Positions 3,633 through 45,652 of a stretch of 64,000 nucleotides of DNA are shown in pieces. A program made the translations under genes and the position numbers. Within the stretch, counting starts at the first letter, position 1. Each line of letters starts with the position of its first letter. The DNA is from Guptibacillus hwajinpoensis (GTDB lineage: Bacteria > Bacillota > Bacilli > Bacillales > Guptibacillaceae). The notes beneath the pieces were generated by a model, which was given only the letters and a program-made list of their open reading frames with translations, was not told where the DNA came from and ran no database searches. The DNA lies in NCBI RefSeq assembly GCF_001039475.1, contig NZ_LELK01000001.1:1927561-1991560 (forward strand). The letters are read 5' to 3'.

Positions 3633-3906
3633 AAAAAGGGTTCCCCATCCAATAAGGACGGGAAACCCGTGTTGCCACCTTTATTCGTCTACATGAGTAA
3701 ACGCACTTAACACTTACAGGAAAAATGACACATTCCAATAAGATGTCTTTTGTATCGGTAAGACGCTCCGCCAGATCCTACTATCCTAATTTCAGATCGG
3801 TAGCTCAGAAGCCCATTCCTTTTTCGTGCACGCTGATTCTCACCTGCCATCAGCTCTCTGAAGTGCTGCTCGAAAGTACTCTTCTTCTTCATTGCCTGTC
3901 TATTTT
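3633..3906 (-). promoter_or_regulatory. T-box leader (tRNA-Trp responsive) with terminator
   Basis: Read on the minus strand, the leader carries Stem I landmarks (AGAGAGCTGATGGCAGGTGAG), a specifier region ggaaTGGgcttctgag with a Trp codon, and the antiterminator core AGGTGGCAACACGGGT. Its TGGC bulge can pair with the GCCA 3' end expected of tRNA-Trp. The competing terminator is the gggtttcccgtcc/ggatggggaaccc hairpin followed by a T run (3633-3668). ORFs called inside it are spurious. Confidence 0.93.
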
Positions 3907-44737: not shown

Positions 44738-45373
44738 TTATAAATATTCTTCATGTGGTGCATGTGTTGGATATAGCATATAGTACATCGGATACGCTCT
44801 TTCATACCAAAACTGAATAATCGGACCTAGAAGAATGACAAGTGCAACTGTTCCTATCCCAACTGGTCCACCTATAAGAAGTGCAAGTGTTGCCATAATC
44901 ACAGCAACAATTGTCTGTCCCATTTGTAAGCTCAGATTAAATCGAGAACTTACAACAAGGAACAATTGATCGAACGGAGCTCTTGGAAACTGTGGCAAAA
45001 TATAGATTGCAACTCCTAGCCCAATTGTTACCATACCTGCGATAAGGATAAAGACTTTTGCCATTAGTGGCGCAGCTGATAAATTAATTGATGCAAATAC
45101 AATTTCTAGCCAGAAATCGAGAATAAAACTTTCTAATACAATCGGTAAGGCTGCTAACCATTCTGGCTTTTGCTTCATAAGACTACTGTTAATGAATATA
45201 ACAAGTATCTGAAACATCCCATACCAGAATCCTACTGTTAAACCTACTAAATCTGATATACCAATAAAAAAGGACGTCCAGAAACCTGCGCCAAGTGTAG
45301 CGTGAATAATTAGTGCTACACCGAAAAAGTTAATAAACATACCTAGAAGGTAAATCGTAACTCGATAAAACAT
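44738..45373 (-). CDS. YczE/YyaS-type integral membrane protein
   Basis: 211 residues, five or six helices (starting MFYRVTIYLLGMFINFFGVA). The GAGFWTSFFIGISDLVGLTVGFW region and the family's PFDQLFLVVSSRF stretch support assignment to the YczE group, whose function is unclear (YczE affects lipopeptide production in B. subtilis). ATG follows GGAGGAGGTC. Preceded by a probable structured leader. Confidence 0.85.
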   Translation of the reverse strand: MFYRVTIYLLGMFINFFGVALIIHATLGAGFWTSFFIGISDLVGLTVGFWYGMFQILVIFINSSLMKQKPEWLAALPIVLESFILDFWLEIVFASINLSAAPLMAKVFILIAGMVTIGLGVAIYILPQFPRAPFDQLFLVVSSRFNLSLQMGQTIVAVIMATLALLIGGPVGIGTVALVILLGPIIQFWYERAYPMYYMLYPTHAPHEEYL

Positions 45374-45514
45374 TACGACCTCCTCCCTTCCTATAAAATA
45401 AATAAAATCTGGTAGAGTGAAACTCCCTCTTATGATGACGTTTTTGTTACGCTTTGCTGTCAGCCGAGGTCCTGTCTCATCGATTGGAAGAGAGGATACT
45501 TTCTACGATTTTTC
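45374..45514 (-). promoter_or_regulatory. Possible structured 5' leader (unidentified riboswitch-like RNA)
   Basis: About 140 bases between the promoter and the ATG of the yczE-like gene. Nested long-range pairings: CCTCTCTT (45488-45495) with AAGAGGG (45425-45431), and GATGA (45477-45481) with TCATC (45434-45438), enclosing the GC-richer segment gacaggacctcggctgacag. It matches no riboswitch consensus I know, and no terminator is evident, so control might be translational. Confidence 0.45.
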
Positions 45515-45520
45515 GAGTTC

Positions 45521-45549
45521 ATTTTATTAGCGATTAATCGAATCGTCAA
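45521..45549 (-). promoter_or_regulatory. Sigma-A promoter of the yczE-like gene
   Basis: TTGACG (45544-45549), 17-bp spacer, TAAAAT (45521-45526) on the minus strand. Confidence 0.72.
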
Positions 45550-45611: not shown

Positions 45612-45639
45612 TAAAAAATGCTGCCCATTTGGACAACAT
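45612..45639 (-). terminator. Probable terminator of the rsbR-like gene
   Basis: Minus strand atgttgtcc-aaat-gggcagcat with two G-U pairs and TTTTTT. A core-less repeat copy separates it from the gene's stop. Confidence 0.7.
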
Positions 45640-45652
45640 TAAAATTTAATCA

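Follow-up and report, generated by a model that had tools for sequence, protein, structure and literature searches.

Results

The window that we analysed is a stretch of 64,000 nucleotides of DNA from Guptibacillus hwajinpoensis, whose nearest named relatives mostly belong to Pseudalkalibacillus. On its minus strand there is a promoter, followed by a leader of about 140 nt, an extended Shine-Dalgarno (SD) sequence and the start codon of a gene for a YczE-like membrane protein of 211 amino acids (44738–45373). The open reading frame scores 75.1 bits against the NCBIfam model NF052291 (membrane_YczE), below the cut-off of 205, and on this similarity the protein is a YczE homologue and not an equivalog; Pfam gave no match at an E-value of 0.001. 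Homologues are present in 88 of the 101 relatives searched, and 13 same-genus genomes were searched for the protein. At an E-value of 0.001 or better, the genome itself holds four matches, which are the window gene and three more distant relatives. The predicted structure of the protein is confident (pLDDT 90.4); however, we found no sequence relative in the PDB, no clear solved relative with Foldseek (best E 0.64) and no interpretable match in a second structural comparison (best Z 5.7 over 63 residues), and we therefore rejected solved structures as a guide to function.

The neighbours of the yczE-like gene are an upstream STAS-domain gene, which we take to be RsbR-like, and an M24 peptidase gene. 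The nine loci listed do not agree in the order of the genes around yczE, so we also rejected the neighbours as a guide to function. In two Pontibacillus loci (L040 and L057), an ORF upstream of yczE presumably encodes a GntR-type regulator, judging by its N-terminus, and in L040 a second YczE-like ORF lies between this ORF and yczE. Elsewhere in the window there is a T-box leader (3651–3901, minus strand; 127.8 bits against a gathering score of 93). Some yczE genes are linked to PLP-dependent MocR regulators (YczR) in a report that calls YczE uncharacterised (PMC4944035). The window gene resembles those genes as a regulated YczE-family gene of uncharacterised function, but it differs in that no divergent MocR gene is found among its neighbours, which does not fit the YczR arrangement, and in that we propose control at the RNA level. 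The yczE gene of B. amyloliquefaciens FZB42 is described as essential for several antibiotics (PMC4634765).

An earlier note on this DNA, made by reading the letters, had proposed a sigma-A promoter, TTGACG-17-TAAAAT, and we found it in place at 45549–45521 on the minus strand. By pattern alone this promoter is not above chance (4 sites found versus 4.4 expected). When we aligned the upstream regions of 14 same-genus orthologues, it was almost invariant, including the part AATCGC of its spacer, and it is conserved upstream of yczE homologues in several genera. The extended motif is found in 24 of 397 genomes, 18 of which have it upstream of a homologous YczE gene; the other six matches lie elsewhere and pointed to no second target family, so we rejected a promoter regulon. 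Among 38 distinct promoter strings (one of which, L085, is not before a YczE gene), 25 carry AATCSCTAATARAAT. Halobacillus loci carry this promoter motif before short leaders, and Pontibacillus loci have different promoter spacers. Conservation of the AATCGC spacer together with the –10 box across several genera is unusual for a plain sigma-A promoter, and in some species a dyad overlaps this region. Terminator-like hairpins were also seen near these promoters. In the window, one followed by a T-run lies between the STAS-domain gene and the yczE promoter (45617–45640, minus strand). In Halobacillus loci (L048:3936–3982, L050:3936–3982 and similar), a hairpin GTGGTCACGA..TCGTGACCAC-TTTTTTT directly follows the –10 box of yczE, and it could stop read-through from the upstream gene yet be incomplete in the promoter's own transcript.

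From the position of the promoter, the leader RNA is predicted to start near 45514 and to run to 45374 on the minus strand, which agrees with the length of about 140 bases given in the earlier note. Across the 14 same-genus upstream regions GGAAGGGAGG is invariant, and the group of leaders that we call L001–L011 shows good conservation over the first ~35 nt, so that promoter and leader segments are both kept upstream of orthologues. In contrast, the interior of the leader is hypervariable; its sequence and length differ between sub-lineages and it is nearly absent in L013 and L014. The leader had been said to match no known riboswitch, and a search of Rfam bore this out, with no family at the gathering score in the window leader (weaker matches fell below it) and none in 10 orthologous loci; on this basis we rejected a known cis-regulatory RNA, and the exclusion of known riboswitch classes extends as far as Rfam 15. 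In the literature on yczE and riboswitches, no such leader was found, and searches on Halobacillus leader RNA and on anti-SD leaders returned nothing relevant; most subscription journals lay outside the scope of all these searches.

Segments near the two ends of the leader can pair with each other. Approximately 20 nt into the RNA, TCCTCTCTTCC (segment b, 45486–45496, minus strand; UCCUCUCUUCC in the RNA) is complementary to the extended SD GGAAGGGAGGA (45381–45391) over 11 bp with one G-U pair, and we call this segment the anti-SD. The 11-bp match is present in 11 of the 14 same-genus (Pseudalkalibacillus) orthologues; in L012 the match has a bulge, and in L013 and L014 it has mismatches. To compare the match with chance, we used dinucleotide shuffles of each leader, with identical leaders dropped as duplicates, and found that the duplex energy beats the shuffles in 11 of 11 leaders of the L001–L011 group (fractions 0.0025–0.04) but not in L012–L014, while one of 26 other distinct leaders (L060) does so at 0.05. 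The window leader also has the lowest leader-by-SD energy among the 49 SD-bearing ORFs of the window (–20.2 kcal/mol versus a mean of –11.6 kcal/mol).

When we folded an alignment of 10 distinct leaders (A5, from which L007 was left out) with RNAalifold, the consensus consisted of the anti-SD:SD helix and two inner helices. In this closed fold, segment c (AAGAGGGAGUU, 45421–45431) pairs with segment f (45400–45409). The consensus pairs 99.6% of cells in A5, as compared to 52–71% when it is slid by 1–3 columns, and its covariation score is reached by 1 of 500 shuffles; none of the 11 anti-SD:SD pairs varies in A5, so this covariation lies entirely in the inner helices. When L007 and L012 are included by way of a model alignment, which is itself fitted to the structure, the score is reached by 0 of 500. 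Folded alone, the window leader does no better than its shuffles, of which 57 in 200 are as good (z –0.57). The nested pairing that the earlier note had drawn, CCTCTCTT with AAGAGGG and GATGA with TCATC, fared less well than the consensus; of the 10 distinct same-genus leaders, 3 contain it in full (that of the window and those of its two closest relatives), and it pairs 78.3% of cells and has no excess covariation. The stronger partner of CCTCTCTT, which that note had missed, is the SD.

We found by computation that a second, conserved fold frees the SD. When the SD was forced open (14 leaders) or the transcript was cut just ahead of it (15 leaders; both foldings omit L007), all leaders formed a stem, which we call P1on, between approximately the first 12 nt of the leader and a segment a short way upstream of the SD. 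In the window, P1on joins segment a (AAAAUC-GUAGA, 45502–45512, minus strand) to UCUAC-ca-GAUUUU (45404–45416), and the GAUUUU of this 3′ arm is part of segment f. In the SD-open fold of the long leaders, an internal purine segment occupies the anti-SD; in the window this is segment c, paired with the anti-SD as CUCUU/AAGAG plus UCC/GGA, and the outer part of the nested pairing of the earlier note partly recurs here in a slightly shifted register. P1on is also found in leaders without the long insertion (L013, L014, L038 and L076). In cut transcripts, P1on has an expected 8–14 pairs in 15 of 15 leaders and exceeds shuffles in 11 of 15 (fraction ≤ 0.035), with the four short leaders at 0.085–0.185.

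The arms of P1on covary between lineages, with C-G to U-A and U-A to G-C exchanges, as can be seen in L011 (AAAAUCUUA/UAAGAUUUU), L012 (GAAAAUUUG/CAAGUUUUC), L014 (AAAAAUUUGA/UCAAGUUUUU) and L038 (AGAAAAUUUGAA/UUCAAGUUUUCU). Misalignment of the 3′ arms obscured the result of RNAalifold on A5 with the SD forced open, and the short arm set A8 was not aligned correctly by MAFFT; we therefore used an arm-swap test. The two arms of a leader pair better with one another than with arms swapped in from other leaders (p 0.0003 for 16 leaders; for 8 lineages p is 0.0155 or 0.0042, according to which representative is taken). With one arm shortened, p is 0.0118 in 12 leaders and 0.0574 in 8 lineages. In a comparison with shuffled 3′ arms, 0.05 is reached by 5 of 9 leaders. 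The covariation of P1on rests on few independent changes, and the stem is placed at the very 5′ end by the promoter-predicted start.

Leaders of Halobacillus and Thalassobacillus have no long insertion and start with a predicted hairpin. The arms of the Halobacillus-type hairpin co-evolve, with 0 of 10,000 permutations as good in 15 leaders (six near-duplicates of 21, L049, L052, L055, L059, L087 and L094, were left out). The leader of L043 does not fold in this hairpin test, and RNAalifold on a MAFFT alignment of 18 Halobacillus-type leaders gave no consensus. L056, L058 and L059 were left out of alignment A7.

To find further copies, we searched with a model of the closed fold (R1). In 12 of 14 genus members it finds a single strong copy, in each case at the yczE-like gene, and over 61 genomes there was nothing strong outside this gene (four weak matches, E 0.08–0.9), so we rejected an RNA class that serves many genes. 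A search of the window's own genome for the exact anti-SD/SD pattern with a gap of 20–50 nt gave 0 matches and is uninformative because this gap is shorter than that of the real leader. Taken together, these data support a real, conserved, structured cis-acting RNA outside Rfam.

Discussion

In our computed folds, segments b, c and f all change partners between one fold and the other, so that the two folds exclude each other, and for this reason our preferred reading of the leader is a bistable translational switch or brake. Together with the conserved segments, the co-variation of the P1on arms and the conserved anti-SD:SD match that we computed, this leads us to the tentative view, to which we give a little less than an even chance, that the leader is a bistable cis-acting RNA controlling translation of the yczE-like gene, one that was probably expanded from a plain 5′-terminal hairpin. 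During transcription, the first ~12 nt would pair with the segment just before the U-rich spacer to form P1on, and meanwhile the internal purine segment would occupy the anti-SD, so that the SD would emerge free and translation could start. This open fold can form first because all of its parts are made before the SD. The complete leader could instead adopt the more stable fold, in which the anti-SD would cover the SD (11 bp), the freed internal segments would pair with each other and translation would be shut. The closed fold is predicted to be more stable than the open fold by 5.4–12.9 kcal/mol in ten leaders of the L001–L011 group. From this stability and from the order in which the parts are made, we infer a translational switch or a time-limited brake, with a balance that would respond to something; given the same energy difference, the leader might simply be shut.

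The pairings near the 5′ end could also serve messenger stability, and we think it rather unlikely, but worth weighing, that the leader is mainly a 5′-terminal stabiliser in which the 5′ hairpin and the strong SD shield the RNA from 5′-end-dependent decay, with the insertion and its anti-SD as a non-switching peculiarity of one lineage. Such a role would fit the presence of P1on in leaders that lack the insertion and the co-evolving arms of the hairpin that begins Halobacillus-type leaders. Plain 5′-terminal hairpins are reported to stabilise B. subtilis messengers, and the determinants given for stabilising leaders in Bacillus are a 5′ occlusion and/or a strong SD (PMC3997798). The B. subtilis aprE leader cited there resembles the window leader, which has a predicted hairpin at its very 5′ end and then a strong SD; in the clade of the window, however, a long insertion that carries the anti-SD sits in the loop. 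Stabilisation would not explain why 11 of 14 same-genus orthologues retain the 11-bp anti-SD:SD match although the sequence between its two arms diverges. Control at the DNA level, with a repressor or activator acting at the conserved spacer and –10 box and the RNA structure of minor importance, seems to us quite improbable. The conserved AATCGC, the recurrence of AATCSCTAATARAAT and the position of most motif matches before a yczE-like gene all speak for it, and in L009 a perfect dyad, CGATTGAC-N6-GTCAATCG, overlaps the promoter. However, the dyad is imperfect or broken in other leaders, we identified no regulator gene and gene order is not conserved, and the pairings in the leader would be unaccounted for.

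SD-sequestering switches are the expression platforms of translational riboswitches, and the window leader resembles them in having an anti-SD with two alternative partners, one of which is the SD. A small-molecule or ion riboswitch, with an aptamer closed by P1on and the anti-SD as expression platform, would have this two-state architecture and, as there is no Rfam match, would belong to a new class. Unlike such switches, the window leader has no conserved aptamer-like core, since its interior differs among sub-lineages, and there is one strong copy per genome, at one gene only; a metabolite riboswitch is thus possible but not supported, and we regard it as quite improbable. The ligand-sensing RNA of the earlier note survives as a conserved, structured leader outside Rfam, while ligand sensing itself gained no support, as the segment enclosed by the proposed pairing is not conserved. 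An RNA thermometer was rejected, since in silico the SD core of ten L001–L011-group leaders has an unpaired probability of at most 0.02 and stays paired from 37 to 65 °C, and attenuation by a terminator was rejected as a simple scan found no terminator-like site on the minus strand within 45374–45520. Because the interior is not conserved, the bistable switch more probably depends on a trans-acting factor or on kinetics than on a metabolite. The fuller proposal, that this is an undescribed, genus-restricted class of regulatory RNA in which a 5′ hairpin was expanded into a two-state, SD-sequestering switch, responsive to a trans-acting factor or ligand and so setting production of the orphan YczE-type protein, we put forward as a possibility that is more doubtful than the switch itself.

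The likeliest origin of the leader is a plain 5′-terminal hairpin whose loop, in part of Pseudalkalibacillus, was expanded and acquired the anti-SD. Should the switch work, the orthologues, some with a plain 5′ hairpin and some with the expanded anti-SD hairpin, would form a natural series from a passive hairpin to a regulatory leader, and the signal that flips the switch would point to what the poorly understood YczE-type family of membrane proteins handles.
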